The position numbers were made by a program, and so were the translations under genes. Of a DNA stretch of 64,000 nt, positions 21,884 to 40,506 are shown piece by piece. The notes under the pieces were generated by a model. That model worked only from the letters and a program-made list of their open reading frames with translations, had not been told where the DNA came from and did not search any database. The number at the start of each line of letters is the position of its first letter. Within the stretch, counting starts at the first letter, position 1. This DNA is from Mesonia mobilis DSM 19841 (GTDB taxonomy: Bacteria > Bacteroidota > Bacteroidia > Flavobacteriales > Flavobacteriaceae): positions 1 through 64,000 of the forward strand of contig NZ_AUHX01000012.1 in assembly GCF_000423405.1 (NCBI RefSeq). Reading direction: 5' to 3'.

Positions 21884-21931
21884 AAACCTGACTTTTGTCA
21901 TTTTTCAACAAGTAGTCTTCATCTACATTTG
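21884..21931 (+). promoter_or_regulatory. CRP/FNR-type activator box and -7 element of usp-hemN
   Basis: Box AAACCTGAC, TTTT, GTCATTTTT at 21884-21905 with a perfect TGAC-N4-GTCA core. TACATTTG (TAnnTTTG) follows at 21924-21931, 29.5 bp from the box centre to its first T. The ATG lies 26 bp further on. Confidence 0.7.
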
Positions 21932-21957
21932 CTTTATCAAATTAATGTACGAGGAAG

Positions 21958-22776
21958 ATGAACATTTTAATGCCTACTGATTTTTCTGAAAACTCTTGGA
22001 ACGCTATTAGCTATGCGTTATCGTTTTTTAAGAACGTGTACACGAATTTTTATTTTTTACACGTAGAGCCTACTGAATGGGAACAGAATGAAGAAGACTT
22101 GCAGACCGTGCAGGTAAAAGCTAAAAATTCGGCAACCGCTTTTCAGGTGTTGTTAGAACGTTTAGGCAACCAACAACTTAATAATAAACACCAATTTTAT
22201 ACTTCGCTAGAGCGTGGGCATTTTGTAGATACGGTGCGAGAACACGTGCAAGAGCGTGATATCGATTTTATCGTGATGGGAACGCAAGGCGCCAGCGGCT
22301 ATAAAGAAGCAACGGTAGGAAGCCATTCTACAGAGGTGATCACTCGTGTAAAATGTCCGGTTTTGGTCATACCAGAAAATGCCAACTATCGGGAACCAAA
22401 GAATATCACATTTCCTACAGATTTTAATATTTCGTATAAAAACAAAGTAATACATACCTTAAAACAGGTTTGTCATTTTAACGAATCTGCTTTAAGCGTA
22501 CTTTACCTTTCGAAAAAGAGCGAAGATCTTACAGAAAGACAAGAAGGAAACAAAGCTTACTTAAAAGAACAATTATTTGAGATAGATCACAGCTTTCATT
22601 ACACCAGAAACGACACTTTAGAAGAAGCCGTACAATCGTTTGTAACTTCTCACGACACGCAAATGATCACGATGATGGCGAAGAATTTAAATTTCTTTCA
22701 GCATATTTTATTTCATCCTTTGGCGAAGAAAATAAGTTACCATAAAGAGATTCCGTTTTTAGTGTTACACGAATAA
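21958..22776 (+). CDS. Universal stress protein, tandem UspA domains
   Basis: Two UspA-like domains. The first (1-145) is intact: ILMPTDFSENSWNAISYA, FIVMGTQGASGYKEATVGSHSTEVI as the ATP-binding G-x2-G-x9-G-S loop, and CPVLVIPE. The second (150-272) starts ITFPTDFN but lacks the glycine loop, so it probably does not bind nucleotide. It is under a low-oxygen activator box and 10 bp before hemN, which suggests one transcript. Its exact role in micro-oxic adaptation is unknown. Confidence 0.88.
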   Translation: MNILMPTDFSENSWNAISYALSFFKNVYTNFYFLHVEPTEWEQNEEDLQTVQVKAKNSATAFQVLLERLGNQQLNNKHQFYTSLERGHFVDTVREHVQERDIDFIVMGTQGASGYKEATVGSHSTEVITRVKCPVLVIPENANYREPKNITFPTDFNISYKNKVIHTLKQVCHFNESALSVLYLSKKSEDLTERQEGNKAYLKEQLFEIDHSFHYTRNDTLEEAVQSFVTSHDTQMITMMAKNLNFFQHILFHPLAKKISYHKEIPFLVLHE

Positions 22777-22786
22777 TTGAAGAAAT

Positions 22787-24148
22787 ATGTGCCAACCACT
22801 CATACAAAAATACAATATTCCGGGTCCGCGATACACGAGTTATCCAACCGTACCTTATTGGGATCATCATACTTTTTCTGTGCAGAATTGGAAAAAATCG
22901 GTCATCGAATCGTTTGAAGAAAGTAATACCACTGAAGGTATTAGCCTTTACATTCATTTACCTTATTGTGAAAGTATGTGCACGTTTTGCGGTTGCAACA
23001 AAAGGATCACCAAACGTCACGAAGTGGAAGAACCTTATATAGCTTCAGTTTTAAAAGAATGGAATTTATACTTAGCCTTTCTACCGGAAAAACCTCGTAT
23101 TAAAGAGATCCATTTAGGTGGCGGAACGCCAACGTTTTTTTCTCCTGAAAATTTACAATACCTGATTAAAGGAATTTTAAAAGATGCCGATCTAGCTGAA
23201 AATTATCAGTTTAGTTTTGAAGGTCATCCCAATAATACTACGCGAGCTCATTTAGAGGCGCTTTACGATGTTGGTTTTAGACGTGTGAGTTATGGCGTGC
23301 AAGATTACGATCTAAAAGTACAACAAGCCATTCACAGAATTCAGCCTTTTGAAAAAGTAAAAGAAGCGACAGCAATGGCGCGTGAAGTTGGATTTACTTC
23401 TGTGAGTCACGATATTATTTTCGGTTTGCCTTTTCAGAGTATTGAAGCGGTTGAAAATACCATCTTAAAAACGAAAGAATTAATGCCCGATCGCATTGCG
23501 TTTTACAGTTATGCACACGTCCCTTGGATTAAAGGAAACGGGCAACGCGGTTACAGCGAAGCGCATTTACCTTCTGCTGAAACTAAACGTACGCAATACC
23601 AATTAGGTAAAGAGTTGCTGGAAGAAATGGGTTACATTGAAATTGGAATGGATCATTTTGCTTTGAAAACAGATGATCTTTACCAATCGCTAGAAGCAAA
23701 AAAATTACACCGAAATTTTATGGGGTATTCGGCTTCTAAAACGCAATTAATGATTGGCTTGGGAGTTTCTTCTATTAGCGACAGTTGGTACGGGTTTGCG
23801 CAAAATTCAAAAAGTATAGAAGAATATCAGCAACGTATTAAAGAAGGGAAATTACCGGTATTTCGCGGACATTTACTCAACGATGAAGATTTAATTATAA
23901 GAAAGCACATTCTAAATTTAATGTGCCACCTAGAAACTTCACTTTCTTTTCAGGATGATTTTTTTGAACTGCCTGAAGTTTTAGAACGCCTGGAAGAAAT
24001 GGAAAACGATCTATTGATCGAAATACAACCCAACTCCTTAAAAGTGACAGAAAAAGGAAGACCTTTTGTAAGAAATATATGTATGGCGTTCGATTTACGC
24101 TTGCAACGAAATAAGCCCGAAACAAGATTATTCTCGATGACGGTTTAA
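22787..24148 (+). CDS. hemN: Oxygen-independent coproporphyrinogen III oxidase
   Basis: Radical SAM enzyme that makes protoporphyrinogen IX without oxygen. The cluster motif is CESMCTFCGC (Cys61, Cys65, Cys68 bind 4Fe-4S; Cys70 adjacent), preceded by PRYTSYPTVPYW as in true HemN rather than HemW. GGGTPTF near 107 binds SAM. The 453-residue length and C-terminal HemN domain fit. It is needed when oxygen is too low for HemF, which matches the activator box in front of usp. Confidence 0.93.
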   Translation: MCQPLIQKYNIPGPRYTSYPTVPYWDHHTFSVQNWKKSVIESFEESNTTEGISLYIHLPYCESMCTFCGCNKRITKRHEVEEPYIASVLKEWNLYLAFLPEKPRIKEIHLGGGTPTFFSPENLQYLIKGILKDADLAENYQFSFEGHPNNTTRAHLEALYDVGFRRVSYGVQDYDLKVQQAIHRIQPFEKVKEATAMAREVGFTSVSHDIIFGLPFQSIEAVENTILKTKELMPDRIAFYSYAHVPWIKGNGQRGYSEAHLPSAETKRTQYQLGKELLEEMGYIEIGMDHFALKTDDLYQSLEAKKLHRNFMGYSASKTQLMIGLGVSSISDSWYGFAQNSKSIEEYQQRIKEGKLPVFRGHLLNDEDLIIRKHILNLMCHLETSLSFQDDFFELPEVLERLEEMENDLLIEIQPNSLKVTEKGRPFVRNICMAFDLRLQRNKPETRLFSMTV

Positions 24149-24179
24149 TAATTTAGGTTAAGTTTATTAGTAGGTTGGT

Positions 24180-24227
24180 GAACACCCTGAAGTTTTTAAT
24201 TAAACTGAAGGGTGTTTCCTTTTTTTC
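24180..24227. terminator. Terminator between hemN and the globin gene
   Basis: AACACCCT...AGTTT pairs with AAACT...AGGGTGTT with one internal mismatch and is followed by a T-run on plus; A-rich flanks allow use from both sides. The two flanking genes are convergent. Confidence 0.65.
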
Positions 24228-24253
24228 AAACACTTTTAAAAATGAACTTGAAA

Positions 24254-24637
24254 CTACTTCGGCCTTGCCATAAAAATTTTCATCTGAAAATTAGTCGCCA
24301 TATTTCTAGCATTAAACTTAGCGCGTTCGGCTACTTCACCTTCAAAATATTCATCTAAGGTATTTACCCAAAGATTCAGCCAGACACCAAAATGTTTGGC
24401 TTCAATTTGATGGTTAAAATTATAATCGACCATAATATGCGCTCGACCGGGTCTGCCGCGATATTTGCCGGCATAAAATAAATTACTTTCCCAAAAATCA
24501 CTCAACTTCTCTAGGTGGTGATCCCAATCGGTAATCGTATCATTAAAAAAAGAGCCAATCTCGGGATTGGCTCTTACTTTATCGTAAAACCGATGTACAA
24601 GTAATTCTACATCGGCTCTATTTTCTAATTCTTTCAT
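24254..24637 (-). CDS. Group III truncated hemoglobin
   Basis: Small globin of 127 residues. The segment AKHFGVWLNLW contains the proximal His (about His82). PEIGSFFND near 25 and LSDFWESNLFYAGKYRGRP near 45 match the group III (P-type) truncated hemoglobins. Such proteins bind O2 or NO and are made under low oxygen or nitrosative stress. It is the second gene of a two-gene operon controlled by a CRP/FNR-type box. Confidence 0.9.
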   Translation of the reverse strand: MKELENRADVELLVHRFYDKVRANPEIGSFFNDTITDWDHHLEKLSDFWESNLFYAGKYRGRPGRAHIMVDYNFNHQIEAKHFGVWLNLWVNTLDEYFEGEVAERAKFNARNMATNFQMKIFMARPK

Positions 24638-24643
24638 AAGCTG

Positions 24644-24937
24644 TTAAAGCATCATCAAAATTCCGTAGTACAAAATAAATAATAAATTTACAGATACACT
24701 TCCTATTAGCGAATTTAATACTTGTTTAGCCGGTAAACATGCTAAGACCGCAGTATTGTAACCCATACTGATCATGACCACTAAAAACAATTGTAACATT
24801 TGCCACACGCCGTGACCGGTCATTAAAATAAACATCGCTGCGATAGCTCCTAAACAACTAGAGGCAATGATACCAATTGCAGCACTACCATAATACATTT
24901 CTTTAAACTCACCGTAAACTTTTTGATACACAGACAT
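24644..24937 (-). CDS. Small membrane protein upstream of the globin
   Basis: A 97-residue protein with a short amphipathic start (MSVYQKVYGEFKEMYYG) and three hydrophobic helices (about 17-40, 44-66, 72-95). I do not recognise a characterised family. It is cotranscribed with the truncated hemoglobin (6-bp gap) and is the first gene after the activator box, so it is probably a membrane partner in the low-oxygen response. Cys28 and Cys67 lie in or near membrane helices. Confidence 0.7.
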   Translation of the reverse strand: MSVYQKVYGEFKEMYYGSAAIGIIASSCLGAIAAMFILMTGHGVWQMLQLFLVVMISMGYNTAVLACLPAKQVLNSLIGSVSVNLLFILYYGILMML

Positions 24938-24962
24938 CTTCTTTTGTTTTAAAATTATAGGG

Positions 24963-25010
24963 TAAAATTACTGCTGAAGCACGGCTTAAAAAATGATATC
25001 GGTCAGGTTT
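24963..25010 (-). promoter_or_regulatory. CRP/FNR-type activator box and -7 element of the globin operon
   Basis: On the minus strand: AAACCTGAC, CGAT, ATCATTTTT at 25010-24989, then TAATTTTA (one change from TAnnTTTG) at 24970-24963. Box centre to the first T of the -7 is 29.5 bp. The ATG is 25 bp further on. Confidence 0.65.
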
Positions 25011-25106
25011 AAAAAATCATCAAACATCAAATAAATCTACATTAATTTTAATTTTATTTATTTTTGTTTTAATTTTATTCAATATTAAATTCAATTTTAT
25101 CAAAAA

Positions 25107-25370
25107 ATGGCTCAACTTCCTGTTAAATGTCCCAGCTGTCAACACACGCTAGAAGTGAGTGAACTTTCTTGCGGAAACTGCGAAACTAAAATTTCTGGTA
25201 TTTACGGACTTCCGGCTTTAATGCAACTTTCTGTAGAAGATCAAGAATTTATTTTGGCGTTTGTATTATCTGGCGGAAGCTTAAAAAAAATGGCTACTCA
25301 ATTAGGCAAAAGTTATCCTACCGTAAGAAATATGCTCGATGATATTATTGAACAATTAAACGCAAAGTAA
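25107..25370 (+). CDS. DUF2089 family protein
   Basis: An 87-residue protein with two Cys pairs at the start, CPSCQHTL and CGNCETK (a likely zinc ribbon, residues 8-30), and a helical part with a HTH look (GGSLKKMATQLGKSYPTVRNMLDDI). This matches DUF2089, thought to be small regulators. It starts a plus-strand run with a membrane protein 7 bp downstream, the usual pairing of an anti-sigma-like or membrane-linked regulator, although function is unknown. Confidence 0.85.
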   Translation: MAQLPVKCPSCQHTLEVSELSCGNCETKISGIYGLPALMQLSVEDQEFILAFVLSGGSLKKMATQLGKSYPTVRNMLDDIIEQLNAK

Positions 25371-25377
25371 ACAGAAG

Positions 25378-25962
25378 ATGAAAAAAATATTATTTCAAGC
25401 TTTTAATTTTTATTCTGAAAAAAGACTTTTAACTATTGGTCTCTTAGGCACTATCGCTGCATCGTTGCTCGGTTTTGTTCTTCACGCACGATTTGACGGA
25501 GTATTGGATGTGCATTTCGTAAAAAGTATAAAACTTTACGAACCACTGCTCGATAACTTGATCAATATTTTTAGCATTACGCTGTTTATATTTATCGCCG
25601 GTAAAATTGTAAATTCTAAAACACGATTGATCGATATTTTAAACGCGTCGCTTATAGCCAGATTGCCTTATTACCTCATTAGTTTAGCGAACATAAATGG
25701 CTATATGGCAGATTTATCTGAGCGAATGTTAGGGCTTGCCACTCAGCAACCGGAGGCTTTACAAATTAATCCTCTCGATATTACGGCGATCCTCATTTTT
25801 GCTTTTGCTTTCCTCCTATTGCTTATTTATTACATGTATTTACTGTATAAAGGCTATCAAGTCGCCACCAACGCAAAAGGTGCTTTACCTATTGGTTTAT
25901 TTGTGATCGCTGTGATTCTGGCCGAAGTTATTTCAAAACTCATTATTTACTTTATTGCTTAA
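25378..25962 (+). CDS. Membrane protein, Yip1-like
   Basis: A 194-residue integral membrane protein with about five hydrophobic helices (20-40, 58-76, 90-108, 133-155, 168-192). LLDNLINIFSITLFIFIAGKIV and DILNASLIARLPYYL are the most conserved-looking parts and resemble Yip1-type or DUF1282 proteins. No catalytic motif is seen. It lies directly between the DUF2089 gene and a secreted hydrolase gene that starts 4 bp after its stop. Confidence 0.65.
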   Translation: MKKILFQAFNFYSEKRLLTIGLLGTIAASLLGFVLHARFDGVLDVHFVKSIKLYEPLLDNLINIFSITLFIFIAGKIVNSKTRLIDILNASLIARLPYYLISLANINGYMADLSERMLGLATQQPEALQINPLDITAILIFAFAFLLLLIYYMYLLYKGYQVATNAKGALPIGLFVIAVILAEVISKLIIYFIA

Positions 25963-25966
25963 TCTC

Positions 25967-27349
25967 ATGGAAAAAATTTTACCTGCGCTCTTATTATTCA
26001 TTTCGAATCTAGTTTTCTCACAAAGCCTTGAAGGTGATTGGCAAGGAAACTTAGAATTTCAAGGGATGAGTTTACCTACCATTTTTCATATCGAAAAAAC
26101 AGAAGATGCTTATAAAGCAACAATGGATAGCCCGAACCAAAACGCTTACGGCATTCCGATCGATGAAGTAACCTTTGAAAACAATACACTCACCCTTACT
26201 CAAAAAGCAGCTCAACTAAAATATGAAGCTACGCTAGTTGATGAAACGCATTTAGAAGGAACCTTTAATCAACGTGGTTTTAGCATTCCGCTAAATCTTG
26301 AAAAAATTACTGCGGAAGAAAATGAAACTTCAGCAGCAAAACCTAATCGACCACAAACTCCAAAAGCTCCTTTTCCTTATTTGGAAGAAGAAGTCACTTT
26401 TTACAATCCGAAAGCAAAGATCAATTTAGCAGGAACGCTTAGTATTCCTGAAGGAAAAGGCAAATTTCCAGCGGTGATCTTAATTTCGGGTAGCGGACCC
26501 CAAAATAGAAATGAAGAATTGTTCAACCATCAACCTTTTAAAGTATTAGCAGATCATCTTACTCGCAACGGAATTGCTGTTTTACGTTACGACGATCGCG
26601 GTACTGCAGCTTCAGAAGGAGATTTTGCTAAGGCTACTACCTATGATTTTATAGATGATGCGAAAGCTGCTGTTGAATTTTTAAAAAACCGAAAAGAAAT
26701 CAACAAGCAAAAAATCGGTGCCATTGGTCATAGTGAAGGTGGTTTTATAGCTCCGGCGCTCACCAAAAAAACCAAATTAGATTTTATCGTTTTAATGGCA
26801 GCACCGGGTTTACAAGGAAGTACACTTTTAAATCTTCAGCGTCAAAAACAAGAAGAATTAATGGGCATCAACCCAATGATGACGCTACAGCGCATGCAAG
26901 TTTTTCAAGAAGTTTACGATGTGGTTTTAGACACTACCTTAAATAAAGAAGAGACAAAAATCCAAACGAAACAGGTTTTTGCAAAACACTGGGGAAATCT
27001 AATTTCTGAAGACCAACTCAACCAAATTGTTGATCAAACCAACACCGAATGGATGAAAACTTTTATTCGCCTAGATCCTAAAACTTATCTAGAACAGGTG
27101 AATTGCGAAGTGTTGGCGTTAAACGGAGAAAAAGACTCGCAAGTACCGGCAAAAGAAAATTTGGCGGCCATTAAAGAAAGTGTTGAAAAATCTGGAGAAG
27201 AAATTACCATTATCGCTTACCCAAAGCTCAATCATCTTTTTCAAACTGCAGTAACCGGAAGCGTTTCAGAATATAAAGAAATTGAAGAAACCATCAATCG
27301 CCAAGTTTTAGAAGATATCACTAACTGGATCAAAGCAGAAACCAAATAG
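25967..27349 (+). CDS. Secreted alpha/beta hydrolase
   Basis: A signal peptide (MEKILPALLLFISNLVFSQ, residues 1-19), a beta-rich N-terminal domain (about 20-115) and an alpha/beta hydrolase domain (135-460). Motifs: ISGSGPQNRNE oxyanion region near 165, RYDDRGTAASEG near 200, nucleophile GHSEGG near 245, acid in LNGEKDSQV near 385 and His in KLNHLFQT near 420. I choose ATG 25967 over TTG 25955, which overlaps the preceding gene. Probably an esterase or peptidase; the substrate is unknown. Confidence 0.85.
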   Translation: MEKILPALLLFISNLVFSQSLEGDWQGNLEFQGMSLPTIFHIEKTEDAYKATMDSPNQNAYGIPIDEVTFENNTLTLTQKAAQLKYEATLVDETHLEGTFNQRGFSIPLNLEKITAEENETSAAKPNRPQTPKAPFPYLEEEVTFYNPKAKINLAGTLSIPEGKGKFPAVILISGSGPQNRNEELFNHQPFKVLADHLTRNGIAVLRYDDRGTAASEGDFAKATTYDFIDDAKAAVEFLKNRKEINKQKIGAIGHSEGGFIAPALTKKTKLDFIVLMAAPGLQGSTLLNLQRQKQEELMGINPMMTLQRMQVFQEVYDVVLDTTLNKEETKIQTKQVFAKHWGNLISEDQLNQIVDQTNTEWMKTFIRLDPKTYLEQVNCEVLALNGEKDSQVPAKENLAAIKESVEKSGEEITIIAYPKLNHLFQTAVTGSVSEYKEIEETINRQVLEDITNWIKAETK

Positions 27350-27375
27350 AAACGTAACTTTGCGGTTTTAAACCT

Positions 27376-28023
27376 GTGATCTTGAAAAAAGCCTTTAGCT
27401 ACCTTTGGCCATTAACCAAAAAAATAAAATCTGACTTTAGCGGAGAACTAGAAGTTACTTGGTTAAACGGTAAAAAAGTTTTAGATACTAAAAATGCTAA
27501 TTATTCTTACGGAGCGTTGCATCAAATTTTAGATCTGGCTTTGCAAAAAACGCAAGCCGATCGTGGTGGTCACACTCTAGTTTTAGGTTTAGGTGGCGGA
27601 AGCGTTTTACAATTACTGCGGAAAAAATTTAATTTCTACGGAAAGATCACTGCCGTCGAACTCGACTCAAAAGTGATCGAGATCGCTAAAAAAGAATTCA
27701 ACATTCAGCAATACCAACCTTTAGCAGTAATTTGTGAAGATGCTGAAAAATTCGTTAAACAAAATGATCAAAAATTCGATACCGTAATTGTAGATCTATT
27801 TATCGACATTCACGTTCCTGAACAATTCTACCAAGTTGAATTCTGGCAAGATCTTGCGCGATTACTTCAACCCAAAGCCACTGTAATTTTTAACGCTGGT
27901 ATTGGTGAAAATCAACAGGTAAAAATTAACCAACTTCAGCAAAAAATAAAGTCAACCATTTCATTTGAAAAAATTGAACACGTAAAAGGAACCAATACCT
28001 TACTCTTAGGAAATAAAATTTAG
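27376..28023 (+). CDS. Spermidine synthase-like methyltransferase-fold protein
   Basis: A 215-residue protein with the spermidine-synthase type Rossmann core: LVLGLGGGSVLQLL near 75 (SAM or dcSAM loop), AVELDSKVIEIA near 100, EDAEKFV near 128 and DTVIVDLFIDIHVPEQFY near 140. The N-terminal beta domain of polyamine synthases is mostly missing (NYSYGALHQI remains), so true polyamine synthesis is doubtful. The start is GTG. Confidence 0.8.
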   Translation: MILKKAFSYLWPLTKKIKSDFSGELEVTWLNGKKVLDTKNANYSYGALHQILDLALQKTQADRGGHTLVLGLGGGSVLQLLRKKFNFYGKITAVELDSKVIEIAKKEFNIQQYQPLAVICEDAEKFVKQNDQKFDTVIVDLFIDIHVPEQFYQVEFWQDLARLLQPKATVIFNAGIGENQQVKINQLQQKIKSTISFEKIEHVKGTNTLLLGNKI

Positions 28024-28078
28024 CAAAGCCCTTTTCATATATTTCAAAAAATTTATTTTTACATAAAATTATTCATAT

Positions 28079-28804: not shown

Positions 28805-28825
28805 GTTTTTAAAATATAACTTTTC

Positions 28826-28905: not shown

Positions 28906-28917
28906 AAAAACATTAAC

Positions 28918-28955: not shown

Positions 28956-28963
28956 TTTGATTG

Positions 28964-29045: not shown

Positions 29046-29051
29046 TTCATT

Positions 29052-31551: not shown

Positions 31552-32001
31552 CTAATTTCTGATCTGTAAATCTTTTTTATACAAATAAGTGGTTTCGTTA
31601 GATTTCCAGTTGATGGAAAGCTTATATTTCCCTTCCACTAATTTTTCAGCAGGAATTATCATTTGCTGATTTTCTAAACTAATAGGAATTTCTAGATCTA
31701 ACTTTTTGTTTGAAGGTCGGTATAAACTTACTTCTCCTTTAATGTCTTTTTTTTCTGAAGGAAACATAATCTGGATTCCTTCAGCAGTAATTTCAACTTG
31801 AATATTTTTAGCTAAACGCGCTGAATTTTGCTGCGCATCGATTTGATCTTGATAGGCTAATTCTTGTTTGTAATATTCTTCGGTCACCAAATCGTGGTCG
31901 TACTTTTTATCGGTACTCATTTTTATCACAAAAAACATGATAAAGCCTATAAAACAAGCGATGGTAATCACGATGCCTACGCCCCAATTTAATTTTTTCA
32001 T
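31552..32001 (-). CDS. ccoH: FixH/CcoH family cbb3 assembly protein
   Basis: A 149-residue protein: one N-terminal membrane helix (7-28, WGVGIVITIACFIGFIMFF), then the FixH hallmark KYDHDLVTEEYYKQELAYQDQID at 33-55 and a small beta domain that ends in LYKKDLQIRN. CcoH is required to assemble or stabilise cbb3 oxidase. It follows ccoG across an 88-bp gap with a palindromic repeat. Confidence 0.92.
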   Translation of the reverse strand: MKKLNWGVGIVITIACFIGFIMFFVIKMSTDKKYDHDLVTEEYYKQELAYQDQIDAQQNSARLAKNIQVEITAEGIQIMFPSEKKDIKGEVSLYRPSNKKLDLEIPISLENQQMIIPAEKLVEGKYKLSINWKSNETTYLYKKDLQIRN

Positions 32002-32086: not shown

Positions 32087-32089
32087 ATT

Positions 32090-33511
32090 CTACCTAAAAC
32101 TACGCGGACCCAAAAATGCGGCTTTGGTTGTTTCTATAAGTTTTTCGCCACTGTACACCCCTATTTTCAGTCGTTCTTTATCGCTTTCTAAAGCAGCTTG
32201 ATTGATATCGATAAACAGCGTTCCTTCTGATAATCCTTGTTTAGGAACTTCAAAATTTTCGTGGGTGACCAATTCAATTTTTCCGCTATGCGAAATCAAT
32301 TTAAAATGAACATCTTCAATAGGTTCTACCGTTTTGTTCACGAGTTTGAAAGTGTACACATTTCGAATTACATTGTTATCTTTCTTCTCGTACAATTGTC
32401 CCGGTAAACGTAAGACCGTTGCTTCAACATCGTTTCGCAGAAAAAGCATTCCGGTTAAAACGCCGATTAAAATCACTAAAACTGCTGTGTATGCTTTCAA
32501 TCTTGGATTAAAAGTAAATTTTTTCTTTTCAGCTATATTCTCTTCACTCGCATATCGAATTAAACCTTTTGGAAGATCTACTTTTTCCATCATTGCATCA
32601 CAAGCATCGATACAAGCCGTACAATTTACACATTCGAGTTGTGTACCGTTTCTAATATCGATCCCAGTTGGGCAAACTTGCACGCATTGTGAACAATCGA
32701 TACAATCTCCTTTTCCGGTAGCAGCACGATTTTCGTTTTTTCTGAATTTTGCTCTTCCTTCTTCTTTTTCACCACGTTTATAATCGTAAGCAACAACAAT
32801 CGATTTTTTATCTAATAAAACGCCTTGTAAACGACCGTAAGGACAAGCAATAATACATACCTGCTCTCTAAACCAGGCGAAAATAAAATAGAAGACCCCG
32901 GTAAATATAAGAAGAGAGATGAGTGTGCTTGTGTGAGCACCGGGGCCTTCGGTTATATATCTAATGAGTTCGTCACTACCAATTAAATAAGCCAGAAAAA
33001 TATTGGCTATCAAGAAACTAATGATGAAAAAAATGAACCATTTTACAACTCGTTTTCTAATTTTCTCTGCATTCCAAGCTTGTTTGGCTAGTCGAATTTG
33101 CTTACCACGATCACCTTCGATCCAATATTCAATTCTACGGAACACCATTTCTAAAAAAATGGTTTGTGGACAAATCCACCCGCAGAAAATTCGACCAAAA
33201 GCAACGGTAAACAGAATGATAAATACCACACCGATGATCATCGAAATCACGAACAGGTGAAAATCTTGTGGCCAAAACGGAAATCCGAAAATATTGAAAC
33301 GACGCTCCATTATATTGAAAAGTAAAAATTGATTGCCATTAATTTTTACAAATGGTGCAGCAAATAGAAACAACAATAACCCATAACTTACCCAAGTTCT
33401 GTATTTGTAGAACTTTCCGTTAGGTTTTTTAGGAAAAACCCAAGAACGTTTACCTTCTTGATTGATGGTTCCTATAGAATCTCTAAATTTTTCGTTTTCT
33501 GGAGTTTCCAC
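32090..33511 (-). CDS. ccoG: cbb3 oxidase accessory iron-sulfur protein CcoG (FixG/RdxA)
   Basis: Membrane-bound ferredoxin-type protein of 473 residues. It has about five helices, GRIFCGWICPQTIFLE near 108 (Cys-rich in membrane), IIACPYGRLQG near 220, two 4Fe-4S motifs CIDCSQCVQVCP and CVNCTACIDACD at about 270-305, and a C-terminal periplasmic Ig-like domain (about 360-473). CcoG reduces Cu(II) for cbb3 oxidase assembly. It sits 66 bp after ccoP with a palindrome in the gap. Confidence 0.95.
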   Translation of the reverse strand: METPENEKFRDSIGTINQEGKRSWVFPKKPNGKFYKYRTWVSYGLLLFLFAAPFVKINGNQFLLFNIMERRFNIFGFPFWPQDFHLFVISMIIGVVFIILFTVAFGRIFCGWICPQTIFLEMVFRRIEYWIEGDRGKQIRLAKQAWNAEKIRKRVVKWFIFFIISFLIANIFLAYLIGSDELIRYITEGPGAHTSTLISLLIFTGVFYFIFAWFREQVCIIACPYGRLQGVLLDKKSIVVAYDYKRGEKEEGRAKFRKNENRAATGKGDCIDCSQCVQVCPTGIDIRNGTQLECVNCTACIDACDAMMEKVDLPKGLIRYASEENIAEKKKFTFNPRLKAYTAVLVILIGVLTGMLFLRNDVEATVLRLPGQLYEKKDNNVIRNVYTFKLVNKTVEPIEDVHFKLISHSGKIELVTHENFEVPKQGLSEGTLFIDINQAALESDKERLKIGVYSGEKLIETTKAAFLGPRSFR

Positions 33512-33549
33512 GTTATTGAGGTGTTAAGTTATTGTTTTAAGAAGAAAAT

Positions 33550-33571
33550 ATCCCGGAACGAGTCCGGGAAT
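33550..33571. repeat. Short palindrome between ccoP and ccoG
   Basis: ATCCCGGAAC with GAGTCCGGGAAT: stem TCCCGG with CCGGGA. It is a variant of the interspersed repeat families and could weaken or stabilise the transcript at this point. Confidence 0.6.
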
Positions 33572-33577
33572 TATTAT

Positions 33578-34537
33578 CTAAATTTCATCGGTTACTTGAA
33601 TCGTATCGACAGAGGTGGTGTTTTCTGCGCGTTCGACCTCATCGGCTTCCGGAGCTTCACCTTCTTCAACCCAAAGTTCTCCTTGGGGTTCTTTTGGTTC
33701 TGCAGGTGTTGTTCCTTGAAGCGAAATCACATAGCTGGCAACTTGTGCTCGTTCGACCGGTTTTAAAGTTCCTTCCCAAGGCACCATTCCTTTACCGGAA
33801 CGACCTCCTTCGGTTACGGTTCTAAATACATTCTTGATTCCGCCGCCTAAAATCCAATATTTATCGGTTAGGTTAGGGCCAATTCCTCCGCCTCCATCGG
33901 CTTTATGACAAGCGGCACAATTGGTTTGATAAATGTTGTTCCCCGCAATTAAATCGGCTTCATCGGTTAATAATTCAACCGTATTCACATCGACTAAATT
34001 TTTAGCCGTTTTTTTGTATTCAGCAATTGCAATTTTAGCTTCCACTACTTCAGCTTCATATTCTTCAATTTGATTGTAGTCTTGAAAAATATGGTAACGT
34101 GCTAAGTAAATTACCGCAAAAATTATAGTGGCATAGAAGCTATAGATCCACCACGGCGGAAGGTTATTATCTAACTCTTTAATGCCATCGTAGTTATGGT
34201 CGAGGATAATCTCACCTTCCTGCTCGATAGGTTTTCGATCTACTAATTTGTTATACGTTTTTCTGAACCAAGCATAACGTTTGGCATTGCTTTCTTTTTC
34301 GGCTGCTAAGTATCTCGCTTTGGCTTCTTCATCTAAAGACCTAAAAAGTACATTTTGCAATGCTGCCACAGAAAGTTCTATTGCGATCGCAAATAAACCG
34401 GCAATCCCTAGAACTAACCAAGCTAACGGATACGTCGTAAAAACAGAACCTTCTGGCACATCTACCGTATATTCGATTAATAAGTACCCAATTACTAAGA
34501 ACAGGAATACGCGAAGGTATGAAGCTAAACTTTTCAT
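33578..34537 (-). CDS. ccoP: cbb3-type cytochrome c oxidase subunit III, mono-heme (CcoP)
   Basis: Cytochrome c subunit of 319 residues. Two N-terminal helices (5-25, 38-60), the CcoP-specific segment DGIKELDNNLPPWWIYSFY near 118-136 leading into a third helix, and one heme site CAACH near residue 210 with distal Met probably in KGMVPWEG near 250. Proteobacterial CcoP carries two hemes; the single CxxCH here is the usual Bacteroidota form. An acidic tail (Glu-rich, 280-319) ends it. The start overlaps the stop of ccoQ by four bases. Confidence 0.93.
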   Translation of the reverse strand: MKSLASYLRVFLFLVIGYLLIEYTVDVPEGSVFTTYPLAWLVLGIAGLFAIAIELSVAALQNVLFRSLDEEAKARYLAAEKESNAKRYAWFRKTYNKLVDRKPIEQEGEIILDHNYDGIKELDNNLPPWWIYSFYATIIFAVIYLARYHIFQDYNQIEEYEAEVVEAKIAIAEYKKTAKNLVDVNTVELLTDEADLIAGNNIYQTNCAACHKADGGGGIGPNLTDKYWILGGGIKNVFRTVTEGGRSGKGMVPWEGTLKPVERAQVASYVISLQGTTPAEPKEPQGELWVEEGEAPEADEVERAENTTSVDTIQVTDEI

Positions 34538-34719
34538 AAGGCTGAATCTTTTTTGGTATCTAACGGAATGTTACTTACTTCTTTGATGTAATCTTTTTTG
34601 GCAGTGAAAACCCACCAGAATAAAGCTACGAAAAAGATGAAAAATATGAGTAAGGAAATCATTGGGTAAACTTCTACCCCATCGATGGTTTCCATATGTC
34701 CTTTTATAAACTTCAACAT
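34534..34719 (-). CDS. ccoQ: CcoQ-type small subunit of cbb3 oxidase
   Basis: A 61-residue single-helix protein: a short start, membrane helix at about 18-38 (MISLLIFFIFFVALFWWVF), then a basic and polar tail. The size, helix and place between ccoNO and ccoP identify it as CcoQ/FixQ, which stabilises the interaction of CcoP with the core. There is an 11-bp gap to ccoNO. Confidence 0.9.
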   Translation of the reverse strand: MLKFIKGHMETIDGVEVYPMISLLIFFIFFVALFWWVFTAKKDYIKEVSNIPLDTKKDSAL

Positions 34720-34730
34720 GGTTTTTGGTT

Positions 34731-36929
34731 TTAGTTTGAACTTACTTCTTGGTTAGCGTCTTTTATTTTAATATCGGTTCCTAATCGTTGAATGTAGGCG
34801 ATAAGTGCGATCACTTCACGATCTTTCATCTCTACGAAATCGAGTCCGTTTTCTTTCGCAAACTTTTTATCGGCTTCATAACTTTCAGCAAAATCGGGAT
34901 CCGAGTACAGGTTTTGTTCAATTTGAGCAGCCTGCTCTTCCATCCATTGTTGTGCGTTGGCAATTTCTTCTTCGGTATAAGGAACTCCTAAAGTGACCAT
35001 TGCTCGCATTTTATCTTCGGTTTGTGAACGATCGTGTTCATTTTTAATCAACCATTTATAACTTGGCATAATTGAACCTGAGGAAGTGGTTTGCGGATCA
35101 TAGAAGTGATTAAAGTGCCAGTTGTCTGAATACTTTCCTCCTACTCTAAATAAATCGGGTCCTGTACGTTTACTTCCCCATAAAAATGGATGGTCGTACA
35201 CATATTCTCCTGCTTTAGAATATTCACCATAACGTTCTACTTCACTTCTAAAAGGTCGAATCATTTGTGAGTGACAAGACACACAACTTTCTCTGATGTA
35301 TAAATCTCTACCTTCTAATTCTAATGGCGTGTAAGGTTTTACACTGGTAATGGTTGGAATGTTAGAATCGATCATTAACGTTGGTATGATTTGAACCGCA
35401 CCACCAATTAAAATTGCGATCGTTGCGTAGATGGTTAATTTTACCGGTCTTCTTTCTAACCAAGTGTGGTAACCTTCACCAGCTACACGTTTGTGAGTTA
35501 CTTTTGGTAGTGGAGCTGCTTCAGCCAATTCATCAGTTACCGTGCTTCCTGCTTTGATAGTTTTCACAATATTATAAAGCATCACAATAGCTCCTAGAAT
35601 GTATAAACTACCACCGATAGCACGCATCCAATACATTGGAATAATTTCTTGAACGGTTTCTAAGAAGTTACCGTACACTAAACTTCCGTCAGGGTTAAAT
35701 TGTTTCCACATCGAAGCTTGTGTGAATCCTGCCACATACATTGGTAATGCGTACATAATGATTCCTAAAGTTCCTATCCAGAAATGAACATTAGCCAATT
35801 TGGTTGACCATAAGTCTTTTTTCACCAATTTTGGTACTAACCAATACACCATTCCGAAGGTTAAGAAACCATTCCAAGCTAAAGCTCCTACGTGAACGTG
35901 CGCAATTACCCAGTCGCTAAAGTGAGCAACAGCGTTGATATTTTTAAGTGATAACATTGGCCCTTCGAATGTTGCCATCCCGTAACCGGTAATCGCTACC
36001 ACCATAAATTTTAAAACAGGATCTGTTCTTACTTTATCCCAAGCACCGCGAAGAGTTAATAATCCGTTGATCATCCCACCCCAAGATGGAGCGATAAGCA
36101 TTACAGAAAAAGCAACTCCTAAGTTTTGCGCCCAATCTGGTAAAGCTGAATATAATAAATGGTGAGGTCCTGCCCAGATGTAAATAAAGATTAACGACCA
36201 GAAGTGAACGATTGATAAACGATAAGAATATACCGGACGATTAGCGGCTTTTGGTACAAAATAGTACATTAAACCTAAAAACGGCGTGGTTAAGAAAAAT
36301 GCCACCGCGTTATGCCCGTACCACCATTGCACCAAAGCATCTTGCACACCTGCATAAACTGAATAACTTTTTAAAGCACTTACTGGCAATTCAATATTAT
36401 TAAAAATATGAAGTACCGCTACGGTTACGAAAGTTGCTAAGTAAAACCAAATGGCTACATATAAATGACGCTGTCTTCTTTTGAAGATCGTCCAGATCAT
36501 ATTCACACCAAAGGCTACCCAAACTAAAGCAATCGCGATATCGATTGGCCATTCTAATTCGGCATATTCTTTAGAAGAAGTATAACCTAACGGAAGGGTG
36601 ATCGCTGCCGCTACAATGATTAATTGCCAACCCCAGAAGTTAAAATTACTTAAAGCATCGCTGGCCATTCTGGTTTTAAGTAAACGTTGCAAAGAGTAAT
36701 ATACTCCGGCAAAGATGGCGTTACCTACAAAGGCAAAAATTACGGCATTGGTATGTAACGGCCGTAAACGACCAAAACTTAGCCACGAAATCCCATCGGT
36801 TAGATTGGGAAATAAAAACATAAACGCTAAGAGAAGCCCTACAGACATCCCTACGATTCCCCAAAAAATCGTAGCGTACAAGAATTTTTTTACGATCTTA
36901 TTGTCGTAATAAAACTGATCCATTTCCAT
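34731..36929 (-). CDS. ccoNO: Fused cbb3-type cytochrome c oxidase subunits I and II (CcoN-CcoO)
   Basis: Terminal oxidase core of 732 residues. Residues 1-465 are CcoN: twelve membrane helices, heme and CuB ligands visible in RPLHTNAVIFAF, WWYGHNAVAFFL and HVHVGALAWNG. Residues about 500-732 are CcoO: one helix then a mono-heme cytochrome c with CVSCH at 549-553 followed by QMIRPF, the CcoO signature. The fusion is standard in Bacteroidota. The enzyme reduces O2 with high affinity and pumps protons, feeding from menaquinol through a bc-type complex. Confidence 0.96.
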   Translation of the reverse strand: MEMDQFYYDNKIVKKFLYATIFWGIVGMSVGLLLAFMFLFPNLTDGISWLSFGRLRPLHTNAVIFAFVGNAIFAGVYYSLQRLLKTRMASDALSNFNFWGWQLIIVAAAITLPLGYTSSKEYAELEWPIDIAIALVWVAFGVNMIWTIFKRRQRHLYVAIWFYLATFVTVAVLHIFNNIELPVSALKSYSVYAGVQDALVQWWYGHNAVAFFLTTPFLGLMYYFVPKAANRPVYSYRLSIVHFWSLIFIYIWAGPHHLLYSALPDWAQNLGVAFSVMLIAPSWGGMINGLLTLRGAWDKVRTDPVLKFMVVAITGYGMATFEGPMLSLKNINAVAHFSDWVIAHVHVGALAWNGFLTFGMVYWLVPKLVKKDLWSTKLANVHFWIGTLGIIMYALPMYVAGFTQASMWKQFNPDGSLVYGNFLETVQEIIPMYWMRAIGGSLYILGAIVMLYNIVKTIKAGSTVTDELAEAAPLPKVTHKRVAGEGYHTWLERRPVKLTIYATIAILIGGAVQIIPTLMIDSNIPTITSVKPYTPLELEGRDLYIRESCVSCHSQMIRPFRSEVERYGEYSKAGEYVYDHPFLWGSKRTGPDLFRVGGKYSDNWHFNHFYDPQTTSSGSIMPSYKWLIKNEHDRSQTEDKMRAMVTLGVPYTEEEIANAQQWMEEQAAQIEQNLYSDPDFAESYEADKKFAKENGLDFVEMKDREVIALIAYIQRLGTDIKIKDANQEVSSN

Positions 36930-36931
36930 TT

Positions 36932-37135
36932 TTATGATTGTTTGTCTTTAGTTAATACTTGTTTATGGTTTTTCTTGGTATTGGGATCTTTTACCAGCTC
37001 GTCTTCAAAAAGCATACGTACCGATGGTGTATAAACATCATCGTATTGACCGCTTTTTACCGAAAGGATAAATGCCACGAAAAAAACGATGGCAACGGTA
37101 ATGCTAATGGCTAGTAAAACATAAATAACACTCAT
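36932..37135 (-). CDS. ccoS: cbb3 oxidase maturation protein CcoS
   Basis: A 67-residue protein with a membrane helix (4-26, IYVLLAISITVAIVFFVAFIL) and the CcoS hallmark AFILSVKSGQYDDVYTPSVRMLFEDE (shown here in part: SGQYDD then PSVRMLFED). CcoS is needed to insert heme b and CuB. It is the first gene of the cco operon, 18 bp after the -7 element of a CRP/FNR-type promoter. Confidence 0.93.
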   Translation of the reverse strand: MSVIYVLLAISITVAIVFFVAFILSVKSGQYDDVYTPSVRMLFEDELVKDPNTKKNHKQVLTKDKQS

Positions 37136-37152
37136 AACTCTCTATTATGGTT

Positions 37153-37200
37153 CAAAAGTAAACGCAAAGGCTTTCTTAAAAAATGACATTTGTCAGGTTT
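37153..37200 (-). promoter_or_regulatory. CRP/FNR-type activator box and -7 element of the cco operon
   Basis: On the minus strand: AAACCTGAC, AAAT, GTCATTTTT at 37200-37179 with perfect TGAC-N4-GTCA, then TACTTTTG (exact TAnnTTTG) at 37160-37153. Box centre to the first T of the -7 is 29.5 bp. The ccoS ATG is 17 bp past the -7 element. Confidence 0.75.
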
Positions 37201-37330
37201 GGGAATTAGGGATTAGTTTTTAGGGATTAGGTAGGAGATTTTTAGTAGGCAGAACTTCGTGTTCAGTTGGTAGTAAGTAGATGGTAGAGATCAGTTGGCA
37301 GTAATTGGTTGACAGCAAACAGTGATTTGG
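37201..37330. repeat. Degenerate short tandem repeats in the pdxH-cco gap
   Basis: The 301-bp gap between ccoS and the pdxH-like gene shows AGGGATTAG-type units three times (37207-37233) and then loose GTTGGTAGT/GTTGGCAGT units (about 37264-37310). Apart from the activator box I see no gene. Confidence 0.5.
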
Positions 37331-37436
37331 AAGTTAGAAGTGGTTAAAAAGTACTCTTACAATATTGAGTTATTGAGTTTTCAATTCAAATTCATCTTAT
37401 ATTTCAACTTCGGATTCAATTTCACTTTGAATTTCC

Positions 37437-38042
37437 TTAGAAGAATAAATCGTAGCAATGCCTAACGTGTTTACTCCAACTGTAATTTTTCTCTAATTGA
37501 TACTGAATAGTCTTGCGAATACCGACCGAAGAATAGTGTATAAAATCGAAAGCTTCCGGTTTTACTAAATAACCGCCCCAATGTTTCGGCATCGGAATAC
37601 TTTGCTGCTGAAATTGTTCTTCAAAACTTTTCAAATTGGTTTCTAGAATACTTCTTGAAGAAATTGCTTTGCTCTGTTCAGAAACCCAAGCGCCAATTTG
37701 ACTCCCTCTGGGACGCTGTTCAAAATATGCTTCAGAAATTGATCGAGGTAATTTTTCTGCTTTTCCTTGAATATAAATTTCCCGATCTGCAGCCTGCCAA
37801 TTAAAATGCAAACTCACCCGTTTGTTTCTGGCAATTGCTCTTGCTTTTTCACTTTTAAAATTGGTAAAAAACAAAAAACCTTCCCACATAAAACGCTTCA
37901 GCAAAACCATTCGGCTTTTTGGGCAAGCATCTTCACCTATAGTCGTGAGCAACATCGCATTTACTTCTCCTATTTTCTGAGATTTTTCTACCTCATAAAA
38001 CCAGGTTTGAAACTCTTGTAAAGGATTATGCTCTTGACTCAT
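37437..38042 (-). CDS. Pyridoxamine 5'-phosphate oxidase-like protein with damaged C-terminus
   Basis: FMN-dependent split-barrel protein of the PdxH family: MLLTTIGEDACPKSRMVLLK near 31, FFTNFKSEKARAI near 75, HFNWQAADREIYIQGKAEKL near 98, YFEQRPRGSQIGAWVSEQS near 128 and PKHWGGY near 180. In working PdxH the end reads W-x-R-S-x-R-L-H-D-R and finishes in LAP. Here it reads FDFIHYSSVGIRKTIQY and ends in an odd HVRHCYDLFF, so the C-terminal substrate and FMN residues are missing. Probably a decaying copy or a changed function. It starts 2 bp after ccoI. Confidence 0.75.
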   Translation of the reverse strand: MSQEHNPLQEFQTWFYEVEKSQKIGEVNAMLLTTIGEDACPKSRMVLLKRFMWEGFLFFTNFKSEKARAIARNKRVSLHFNWQAADREIYIQGKAEKLPRSISEAYFEQRPRGSQIGAWVSEQSKAISSRSILETNLKSFEEQFQQQSIPMPKHWGGYLVKPEAFDFIHYSSVGIRKTIQYQLEKNYSWSKHVRHCYDLFF

Positions 38043-38044
38043 CT

Positions 38045-40435
38045 TTACATTTTTTTAAACAGTTTTCGACCTTTTAAGTTGGTGAGAACGGTTACAAAAA
38101 CCAATACACTTATCGAGCTCAACGGCATTAAAATAGCAGCAATAATGGGAGATAACTGCCCCGTAACCGCAAAATATAAACCAATTACATTATAGATAAA
38201 CGACAAGGTAAAACTCGCCTTAATGATCCCCACGGTTTGTTTTGCTGCCTGAATAAACGCATTGATTTTTGAAAACTGTCCGGCTTCTAAAATAGCATCG
38301 CAAGCGGGAGAAAATACGTTTACATTTTCTGCAATAGAAATACCCACGTCACTTTGCGCTAAAGCTCCGGCATCGTTGAGTCCGTCGCCAATCATCACCA
38401 CATTTTTACCTTCTTGCTGAAGGGTTTGAATATAATTGAGTTTATCTTCTGGTTTTTGGTTGAACAACATATCGGTTCCTTGCGGAAGTAATTGTTGCAA
38501 GTAGGCTTTTTCTCCCTGATTATCGCCCGAAAGAATAATTAAATGAAACTCTTTTTTTAGCTGCTGAAACAAATCTTTTACACCTTCCCGATACTGGTTA
38601 TGAAAAATATATTTTCCTTTATAGGTATCGTTGGTTTTCACGTGAACCGAAGTTGCTAATGTATCGGTTTCAGTTTCATTTCCTACAAATTTAGCTGAAC
38701 CCACATCGATAGAATTTTCAGCTTTTTTGGCGTGCATTCCCTTCCCGGTGATCTCTTCAAAATCGTCTAAGGTTTGAATATCCTGTTCGGCTAAAAAATC
38801 GTATAACGCTCGACTTAACGGATGGTTTGAAGAACGTAAAGTATTTTTCAGCAAAGATTCTTCTTCTTCAGAAAGAGCCATCCCTTCATAAGCAATCGAA
38901 CTTTTTTTATTGGTCGTAATGGTTCCTGTTTTGTCGAAAATTAGCGTATCAATTCTAGCTAACTTTTCAATTACATTCGCGTTTTTCAAGTAAAATTTCT
39001 GTCGACCAAAAATGCGTAACATATTTCCTAAGGCAAAAGGCGTCGATAGTGCCAATGCGCAAGGGCAAGCGATGATCAATACCGAAGTAAGTACATTGAT
39101 CGCCAAACTGCTATCGGCTACCAACCAATAACTTGTCGCCACTAAAGCAATACTTAAAACTGCCCACGTGAAGTATTTACTAATCGCATTGGTAATACCT
39201 ACAAAACCCTGTTCTTTATCTTTAGCAAACACATCGTTACTCCACAATTGCGTAAGGTAACTTTGCTCAACAGATTTGAGCGCTTCTACTTCGATCGCGC
39301 CTGCTAATTGCTTTCCGCCGGCAAAAAGTTTATCTCCGCTCAATTTGGTTACCGGTTCACTTTCTCCCGTTACAAAGCTGTAATCGATTTGCCCTTTCCC
39401 GGAAATTAAAATACTATCGACCGGCAACAATTCGGCATTTCTAATGAGTAAGCGATCGCCTTCTTTAATTTCATATACCTGAATATTTTCTTCTTTCGTT
39501 TCTCCATTCAGCTTAGAAATTTTAGTTACTGCAATCGGAAAATAGGATTTATAATCGCGCTCAAACGATAAAAAGGAATAGGTTTTTTGCTGAAAAAATT
39601 TTCCCAATAATAAAAAGAATACCAAACCGGTTAGGCTATCGAAAAATCCTGTTCCCGTATCGGTAAAAATTTCTGCTGAACTTCGTAAAAAAAGCACTAA
39701 AATCCCCAATGCGATAGGAACATCAATATTCAGAATTTTGGAGCGCAAACCTTTATAAGCCGAAATAAAATACTCTTGCGCGGCATAAAAAACTACCGGT
39801 AACGAAAAGGCAAACATCAAACCGCGAAACAGGTATTTATATTGCTCGAGCCAATATTCTGAAACTTCAAAATATTCTGGAAACGATAAAAACATCACGT
39901 TCCCAAAAGCGAAACCGGCAATGCCTAATTTGTAAATCAAGCTGCGGTCTACTTGTTTTTTTCCTTCAGCATAATCATTTAAACTTATGTAAGGTTCGTA
40001 ACCAATGCTACTTAATAGTTTGACGACTTCTTTTAAGTTGAAGTTTTCAGTTTTAAAAGTAATACGAACGGTTTTCTTCGGAAAGTTGACTTGCGAACTT
40101 TTAATTTCAGTTTGCAATTGATTTAAATTCTCTAAAATCCAAATGCACGAACTACAATGCATATGCGGAATGTAGAGGTTAACGATCTGGATAATCCCGT
40201 CATTAAATTCAACTAATTTTTCAATAATATCAGGATGATCGAGATAATCGTATTTGCCTTCAATCTCTTGCGGAATCGCTCCTGGAGAGGATTGAAGATC
40301 GTAATAACAGGATAGATTATTCGTTGAAAAAATTTCATAAACAGTTTGGCAGCCATGACAGCAAAAGCTTTTCTCGTCAAACACAATAGGCGATTTCCCG
40401 CAATCGCTCCCACAATGAAAACAAGTTTGTTGCAT
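38045..40435 (-). CDS. ccoI: Copper-translocating P1B-type ATPase of cbb3 assembly (CcoI/FixI)
   Basis: Copper exporter that feeds CuB of cbb3 oxidase. N-terminus: CFHCGSDC and CCHGC (residues 4-30), then an HMA-type domain with HMHCSSC near 92; CPCALAL in the sixth helix; DKTGT phosphorylation site; TGEP; GDGLNDAGAL. The frame is open to a GTG at 40459, but the -7 promoter element occupies 40459-40466, so that codon would lie at or before the transcription start. ATG 40435 (MQQTCFHC) is the better start, giving 796 residues and a short leader like those of the other box-controlled genes. Confidence 0.93.
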   Translation of the reverse strand: MQQTCFHCGSDCGKSPIVFDEKSFCCHGCQTVYEIFSTNNLSCYYDLQSSPGAIPQEIEGKYDYLDHPDIIEKLVEFNDGIIQIVNLYIPHMHCSSCIWILENLNQLQTEIKSSQVNFPKKTVRITFKTENFNLKEVVKLLSSIGYEPYISLNDYAEGKKQVDRSLIYKLGIAGFAFGNVMFLSFPEYFEVSEYWLEQYKYLFRGLMFAFSLPVVFYAAQEYFISAYKGLRSKILNIDVPIALGILVLFLRSSAEIFTDTGTGFFDSLTGLVFFLLLGKFFQQKTYSFLSFERDYKSYFPIAVTKISKLNGETKEENIQVYEIKEGDRLLIRNAELLPVDSILISGKGQIDYSFVTGESEPVTKLSGDKLFAGGKQLAGAIEVEALKSVEQSYLTQLWSNDVFAKDKEQGFVGITNAISKYFTWAVLSIALVATSYWLVADSSLAINVLTSVLIIACPCALALSTPFALGNMLRIFGRQKFYLKNANVIEKLARIDTLIFDKTGTITTNKKSSIAYEGMALSEEEESLLKNTLRSSNHPLSRALYDFLAEQDIQTLDDFEEITGKGMHAKKAENSIDVGSAKFVGNETETDTLATSVHVKTNDTYKGKYIFHNQYREGVKDLFQQLKKEFHLIILSGDNQGEKAYLQQLLPQGTDMLFNQKPEDKLNYIQTLQQEGKNVVMIGDGLNDAGALAQSDVGISIAENVNVFSPACDAILEAGQFSKINAFIQAAKQTVGIIKASFTLSFIYNVIGLYFAVTGQLSPIIAAILMPLSSISVLVFVTVLTNLKGRKLFKKM

Positions 40436-40458
40436 CTCTTCTCTTAATATTGAATGCA

Positions 40459-40506
40459 CAAAGTTGCAATAGCAATAGCTTTCTAAAAATGATAATTGTC
40501 AGGTTT
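40459..40506 (-). promoter_or_regulatory. CRP/FNR-type activator box and -7 element of ccoI
   Basis: On the minus strand: AAACCTGAC, AATT, ATCATTTTT at 40506-40485, then CAACTTTG (one change from TAnnTTTG) at 40466-40459. Centre-to--7 spacing is 29.5 bp, the same as at the other sites. Confidence 0.65.

Follow-up and report, generated by a model that had tools for sequence, protein, structure and literature searches.

Four operators in one register

A 64,000-nucleotide stretch of Mesonia mobilis DSM 19841 (RefSeq assembly GCF_000423405.1, contig NZ_AUHX01000012.1, positions 1 to 64,000; 'the window' below) raises a question of oxygen control: what reads the 22-base-pair (bp) box that stands before four operons, those of a universal stress protein (usp) with hemN, a globin-like protein, the cbb3 oxidase (cco) and its copper pump (ccoI)? 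We consider it probable that the boxes are FNR/FixK-type operators at -41.5, and that they are read by a receiver-CRP fusion, driven by a FixL-like kinase, which replaced a four-cysteine FNR.

All four boxes have the form AAACCTGAC-N4-RTCATTTTT, oriented toward the gene that each precedes. One lies on the forward strand at 21884-21905 (usp-hemN, AAACCTGAC-TTTT-GTCATTTTT), and three lie on the reverse strand: 24989-25010, before the operon of a 97-residue protein and the globin-like protein; 37179-37200, before the cco operon with ccoS first; and 40485-40506, before ccoI. The same letters were re-read at these coordinates and strands, which a first-pass annotation of the sequence had already assigned. 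Even when three mismatches are allowed, the window yields no match beyond these four, while 100 dinucleotide shuffles of it yield a mean of 0.28 and at most two, none reaching four. The annotation had also proposed a genome-wide scan. In the assembly (3,205,558 bases, 59 contigs, 99.91% complete) the exact 22-bp pattern is found at these four places only, all upstream of genes; no match occurs at one mismatch and three occur at two.

The box centre lies 29.5 bp from the first base of the -7 element in each of the four promoters, as annotated. A literal TAnnTTTG had been claimed for all four. It is present before usp-hemN (TACATTTG, 21924-21931, forward strand) and cco (TACTTTTG, 37153-37160, reverse), and the elements of the globin operon (TAATTTTA, 24963-24970, reverse) and ccoI (CAACTTTG, 40459-40466, reverse) each miss one of its six fixed letters. 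The start-site map of Flavobacterium psychrophilum places the sigma-A element TAnnTTTG at -12 to -5, according to the available excerpt of PMC9723704. The box centres are therefore predicted at -41.5, in agreement with the class II position near -41 suggested earlier. Transcription would start at 21936, 24958, 37148 and 40454, with predicted leaders of 22, 21, 13 and 19 nucleotides, respectively; the median leader in the F. psychrophilum map, again from that excerpt, is 24. A palindromic CRP/FNR box around -41.5, at a constant distance from the core promoter, is the class II arrangement, and a CRP-family protein would be expected to activate these promoters from it.

The classical TTGAT-N4-ATCAA palindrome is absent from the window, and the boxes lack TTGAT half-sites. 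Their core, TGA-N6-TCA, is nevertheless that of the classical FNR/FixK box, with A or C as the outer base on the left and T on the right. The first-pass annotation had set the box apart from the classical type; it is better read as a variant of the FNR/FixK box, TGAY-N4-RTCAT, which relatives without the fusion use too.

Conservation of the rule in relatives

The letter-and-distance rule was followed through the 52 cco loci nearest in CcoN (L056-L107 of 80) and 38 regions from 20 relatives of the genome survey described below (G numbers). By title the 52 loci are mostly Flavobacteriaceae, with a few labelled only Flavobacteriales or Bacteroidetes, and some stop short of some genes. TGAY-N4-RTCA is present in 157 of the 160 promoters examined at ccoN/ccoS, ccoI, usp and the 97-residue gene, the window's four included; it was not found in the remaining three (L077 ccoN, L095 ccoN and L095 ccoI). 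The box at usp and that of the globin operon are kept at the equivalent places, and those at ccoS and ccoI recur in 20/20 and 20/20 regions of the 20 relatives in which these genes were found, whether the fusion is present or absent. TAnnTTTG (at least five of six letters) stands at exactly 29.5 bp from 146 of 161 boxes; other offsets average about two cases, the largest 14. The set as a whole leans toward the window's own genus, and the 146 comprise 142 distinct promoters.

Across the 142, T follows RTCA without exception, TGA is preceded by A in 46% and by C in 49%, and the flanks three to five bases out are A-rich on one side and T-rich on the other, symmetrically. The earlier claim of asymmetry thus stands as to direction, which comes from the strict proximal half-site. 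It does not stand as to the AAACC flank, which is a local form of this clade, outside the general rule. The first letter of the -7 element is weak, T in only 64% of the 142.

Of 41 hemN genes, 16 have a box of their own with a six-of-six element at the usual distance, against an expectation of 0.62, and a further 12, in the window's clade, lie downstream of usp; no box was found for the other 13.

Two narrower descriptions of the box were tried and set aside. The box is not private to the fusion, being carried by G300 and G311, two FNR-bearing genomes that lack the fusion, and by many other relatives. Nor does the 19-bp core CCTGACNNNNRTCATTTTT serve as a family-wide signature: it is exact in 15 of 299 family genomes (four times in M. 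mobilis, once in each of the other 14), and its reversed control in five.

A FixL-like kinase and a receiver-CRP fusion

Directly upstream of the box-bearing usp-hemN operon lie a histidine kinase (19329-20564, forward strand; PAS, HisKA and HATPase domains) and a 350-residue REC-cNMP_binding-HTH_Crp fusion (20571-21623, forward strand), the proposed reader of the boxes. Among solved structures, the kinase PAS domain is matched best in sequence by FixL (5e-15), with DosP second; both proteins sense oxygen through heme. H67, which aligns with the heme-binding His of FixL, is kept in 29 of 29 kinases and R88 in 28 of 29; we take the two to be counterparts of the FixL heme-ligand His and distal Arg. 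The gene encodes the features by which FixL is recognized, a PAS domain with proximal His and distal Arg joined to a kinase core. Its signal would be oxygen at a heme.

The receiver of the fusion retains D52 and K104 in 31 of 31 sequences. FixJ is a receiver with a LuxR-type output domain that activates fixK; the output here is instead cNMP_binding and HTH_Crp_2. The fusion resembles FixK in lacking the cysteine pattern of an FNR iron-sulphur (Fe-S) protein, whose CxxC...C spacing occurs in none of 30 fusion rows, but it carries a receiver, making it FixK-like in proposed role only. Residues 218-221, viewed as candidate cAMP-binding positions, vary among fusions. In the recognition helix, E316 and R320 are invariant (31/31) and the residue before the Arg is Ile in 25 of 31. 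The other six, those of Sphingobacteriaceae, have Ser at this position. Several Sphingobacteriaceae cco promoters carry an outer G (GTGAY-N4-RTCAC); a tie to the Ser residue was drawn by eye only, and L133 contradicts it. Residue 315 is Ile in the M. mobilis fusion and Thr in the 99%-identical sister of G306. A box with -7 element stands upstream of the kinase in three of 30 regions (0.38 expected), none of the three in the genus.

Proposed displacement of FNR

Of the 52 nearest loci, 33 contain a stand-alone CRP/FNR gene, which in most cases diverges from ccoI. With a wider set included, these proteins carry Cys at C, C+3, C+49 and C+102 in 44 of 44 cases, the CxxC and one later Cys aligning with cysteines of Aliivibrio FNR. 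Their recognition helix is of xESxIR type, with Ile before the Arg in 44/44. Because this helix and that of the fusion are nearly identical, one regulator could have taken over the sites of the other.

Sixty genomes, that of M. mobilis included, were surveyed for both proteins. FNR was called at 38% identity or more with a match beginning at residues 1-4, and the fusion at 40% or more over 340 residues; G002, with two receiver-only frames, was left out of the count. Of 46 genomes with cco, 28 have full-length FNR and 18 lack it. The fusion is present in 14 of these 18, namely 13 of the genus (M. mobilis included) and G007 of another genus, and accompanies FNR in five of the 28 (G001, G011, G013, G018 and G021); the association of fusion with FNR absence has a Fisher p of 1.4e-4, kinship ignored. 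Of the genus members, G300 and G311 carry cco and FNR but lack the fusion; G303 lacks all three. Among the L-numbered loci, five genomes were searched whole for FNR, and none was found in Aquimarina sp. AU474. The annotation had named the receiver-CRP fusion as the likely reader, and both its place beside the usp-hemN operon and its co-occurrence with FNR absence point the same way.

On the CcoN tree, FNR absence needs four changes, three of them forced by supported branches, and the box persists at cco and ccoI in the FNR-less lineages. FNR was presumably the ancestral state. The CRP domains of fusion and stand-alone proteins form two separate clades (98/100), although long branches join there; with that warning, derivation of the fusion from the local FNR is rejected. 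The fusion appears to be an old parallel line, found also in Sphingobacteriaceae, Chitinophagaceae and Flammeovirgaceae. If FNR was ancestral, the balance leans modestly toward displacement of Fe-S FNR, three or four times in Flavobacteriaceae, by a FixL-like oxygen kinase with a receiver-CRP fusion acting directly on the FNR operator, the cco and ccoI operators and the -41.5 register being retained.

The proposed circuit would run as follows. Loss of oxygen from the PAS heme would lead the kinase to phosphorylate the fusion at D52. The fusion, the most likely box reader in this genome, would sit on the box as a CRP/FNR-family dimer and activate a Bacteroidota sigma-A promoter in class II manner, thereby switching on the cbb3 oxidase, its copper pump, oxygen-independent heme synthesis, the universal stress protein and the globin-like protein. 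The circuit would amount to a shortened FixL-FixJ-FixK cascade, with FixJ receiver and FixK activator in one polypeptide. In this genome the fusion would have replaced the stand-alone four-cysteine FNR that sits beside the equivalent cco promoters in many relatives, the operators and their spacing surviving the swap because the two proteins share nearly the same recognition helix. Binding, phosphorylation, a heme with oxygen as the signal, and activation rather than repression are predictions from sequence.

If the displacement is real, the cbb3 oxidase should come on at higher oxygen in the swapped lineages than in the sisters that kept FNR, since the rhizobial FixL branch acts at about 1% oxygen and FnrN near anoxia, in the portion of PMC7888657 available.

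Alternative readings and points against

Several other readings of the boxes deserve weighing. The one that survives best keeps the fusion in control but gives it a signal other than oxygen (redox, nitric oxide, quinone or light), with usp genes heading a general stress response. Of the 60 genomes, five have both regulators, and in four of these (G011, G013, G018 and G021) the kinase-fusion pair indeed lies by box-bearing universal stress protein genes, away from cco, and globin-like and usp targets would suit nitric oxide or redox stress. The reading is nonetheless unlikely, given that the targets are the cbb3 oxidase, its copper pump and oxygen-independent hemN, that the PAS domain is nearest FixL and DosP and retains the ligand His and the Arg, and that the regulator replaced is FNR-like.

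Less probable again is a reader other than the fusion, which would then act elsewhere only. The genome does hold three further cNMP-binding proteins (C1:109697, C1:332456 and C14:25764), but their helices (SSRVVISRLL, KPESLSRIRK and TPESLSRVRK) are unlike the one common to FNR and fusion, the CxxC spacing of FNR is absent from all three, and it is the fusion that adjoins a box-bearing operon and tracks FNR absence. Repression, in which the bound protein would block RNA polymerase, draws on the closeness of box and promoter; a centre at -41.5 with a weak first -7 letter is the classical activator arrangement, and repressor sites usually overlap the start, which makes a repressor very improbable. 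That the boxes are alike through duplicated promoters or chance can be dismissed: the globin operon, cco and ccoI (three of the four) do have AAG or GAAAG in common shortly past the box, but the boxes precede unrelated genes, the letters from box to -7 element differ, the core is conserved against a varying spacer, no shuffle reaches four, and each promoter keeps its box in relatives.

Other observations weigh against the fusion as an oxygen-responsive successor to FNR. PAS domains with a similar general motif also occur in kinases not shown to bind heme. The M. mobilis fusion has I315 in its recognition helix, where 20 of 31 fusions have Thr and seven Ser, and no TGAY-N4-RTCA was found within 400 bp before the kinase gene in the window, which thus gives no sign of autoregulation. 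FNR absence is clustered, 13 of the 18 cases being one clade. Three other genomes with cco and no full FNR (G020, G328 and G315) have partial CRP-like matches, and the 0.3-Mb genome G326 has none; cco can accordingly run otherwise. The whole-genome search of Tenacibaculum agarivorans gave no FNR orthologue but a 35% FNR paralogue, and the Mariniflexile locus L073 holds fusion and FNR both beside ccoI. The CcoN tree is a gene tree, on which the direction of change is assumed. Exact CCTGACNNNNRTCATTTTT occurs in neither of the two congeners among the 299 family genomes, so that the string itself is no signature. For this organism, start sites, expression and binding are predictions.

Tandem boxes and divergent promoters

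The rule takes another form farther out. Twenty-seven distant cco loci (L108-L135 without L125, a Flavobacterium) come mostly from other Bacteroidota, a few being titled Flavobacteriaceae, Flavobacteriales, Ignavibacteria-like or Calditrichota. Upstream of ccoN, 16 of the 27 pair a full site with another (at least five of six letters) exactly 22 bp away; the next commonest distance occurs twice, and shuffled flanks yield 0.35 loci with a pair. Such a pair is present in one of the 52 near loci (L092). A looser list (second site at least four of six) holds 19 pairs, 18 of which have a -7 element (at least five of six) at the usual distance from the second box, so that the centres would be at -63.5 and -41.5. 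Examples stand at -289 and -267 in L114 and at -98 and -76 in L133. The second box keeps TCA in 19 of 19 and has TGA in only six, with TAA in nine; the strict proximal and loose distal halves hence reach beyond the family.

The ccoI box has a second face. In the window (40490-40532, forward strand) a -7-like element lies at equal distance on its opposite side, as at 14 of 54 ccoI boxes. That side faces a DUF6134 gene in the window and fnr in relatives such as L062-L066, where one box would serve two divergent class II promoters. At G299:C2:251667-251740, likewise, a single palindrome is in register with two divergent -7 elements.

Proposed target genes and the probable wider regulon

On the forward strand, the universal stress protein (PF00582) is encoded at 21958-22776 and hemN, oxygen-independent coproporphyrinogen III oxidase (TIGR00538, over cut-off), at 22787-24148. 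The remaining genes are on the reverse strand. The 97-residue protein (24644-24937), hydrophobic by eye, has no Pfam or NCBIfam match, and the globin-like protein (24254-24637) matches Bac_globin with an E-value of 0.0034 at 18 bits, below the curated cut-off of 21. The cco operon opens with a 67-residue protein (36932-37135, ATG at 37135), which we presume from its position to be ccoS, followed by a fused CcoN-CcoO (COX1 and FixO domains, 34731-36929), CcoP (FixP_N and cytochrome c, 33578-34537), a CcoG/FixG-like ferredoxin protein (32090-33511) and CcoH/FixH (31552-32001). The CcoI-type metal P-type ATPase spans 38045-40435, with its ATG at 40435. The pdxH gene at 37437-38042 directly follows ccoI in the same direction and may be co-regulated with it. 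The cbb3 oxidase, copper pump and oxygen-independent hemN suit the low-oxygen life to which the annotation had assigned these targets. In F. psychrophilum, oxygen limitation strongly induces the cbb3 oxidase and raises heme-synthesis enzymes, as the excerpt of PMC9723704 relates.

The four boxes had been taken as the whole regulon, which proves too narrow. A relaxed rule (TGAY-N4-RTCA, 22-24 bp, NAnnTTTR) finds 18 places in the genome against two in the reversed control; several fall within genes, and about eight outside the four precede genes. One candidate target, at C3:119806, is a second universal stress protein. At C3:350860 the box falls within the longest reading of the frame of a protein of unassigned type; the place at C4:27216 precedes the gene of a small protein in a divergent pair, that at C5:128179 a lactamase-rhodanese protein and that at C6:210900 a protein that has no Pfam match. 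The remaining candidates are a FabH-like protein (C13:57164), a lipocalin-like protein (C1:356654) and an SCO1/SenC protein (G000:C5:84963-85005, L241). The last, whose box lies about 20 bp before the gene with TAATTTTG at 29.5 bp, is a likely further target; SCO1/SenC proteins deliver copper to oxidases. Four or five sister species also carry the promoters seen at C3:350860, C5:128179 and C6:210900. When 16 genomes of the genus are scanned with a strict-distance form with TCAT, 124 places result, compared with 11 for the control. G303, which lacks cco, FNR and fusion, has three places. An identical 43-base promoter stretch occurs at G302:C18:22300-22342 and G000:C4:27216-27258, in two species whose CcoN differ by 13%; that cluster may have been transferred horizontally.

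Comparison with known systems

Open-licence PMC literature yielded no description of the box, the promoter rule or a receiver-CRP fusion in Bacteroidota, and no defined operator for oxygen control of Bacteroidota respiration. The accessible part of PMC8510549 treats Flavobacteriales CRP/FNR homologues as MalR-like carbon sensors. What is offered here is a rule of letters and distance valid across the relatives examined, together with two regulators that probably use the box.

In E. coli class II CRP/FNR promoters the site is likewise centred 29.5 bp before the -10/-7 element, that is, at -41.5. The element here is TAnnTTTG, and the proximal half-site is stricter than the distal one. FNR and FnrN share the kind of box and the class II position, and a stand-alone FNR with CxxC and two invariant Cys adjoins the equivalent promoters in many Flavobacteriaceae, which it would by inference control. 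The proposed reader in M. mobilis differs in lacking the cysteines and carrying a receiver domain, and the residue before the recognition-helix Arg is Ile here rather than the Ser of Aliivibrio FNR.

There is also a close likeness to the FixL-FixJ-FixK cascade of rhizobia and Caulobacterales, which, as far as the available parts of PMC4999443 and PMC7888657 describe it, has a heme-PAS-type kinase, a receiver, a CRP/FNR activator without Fe-S cysteines, cco/fixNOQP and hemN as targets and an anaerobox-type palindrome. Here receiver and CRP activator are one protein, which leaves no transcriptional FixJ-to-fixK step; the half-site is TGAY with A or C outside rather than TTGAT, and the promoter is the Bacteroidota TAnnTTTG. 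In Alphaproteobacteria, FnrN/FixK targets include cco and hemN, and in Caulobacterales FnrN gave way to FixK on existing sites, according to the same portion of PMC4999443. As that portion presents it, an Fe-S sensor was lost there and its operators passed to a FixL-dependent activator, much as we propose here. The Caulobacterales takeover involved a transferred three-gene cluster, whereas an older Bacteroidota kinase and fusion would have stepped in here, on what appear to be three or four occasions provided that FNR is ancestral. The outcome would be a natural experiment, a change of sensor with the DNA sites left as they were.

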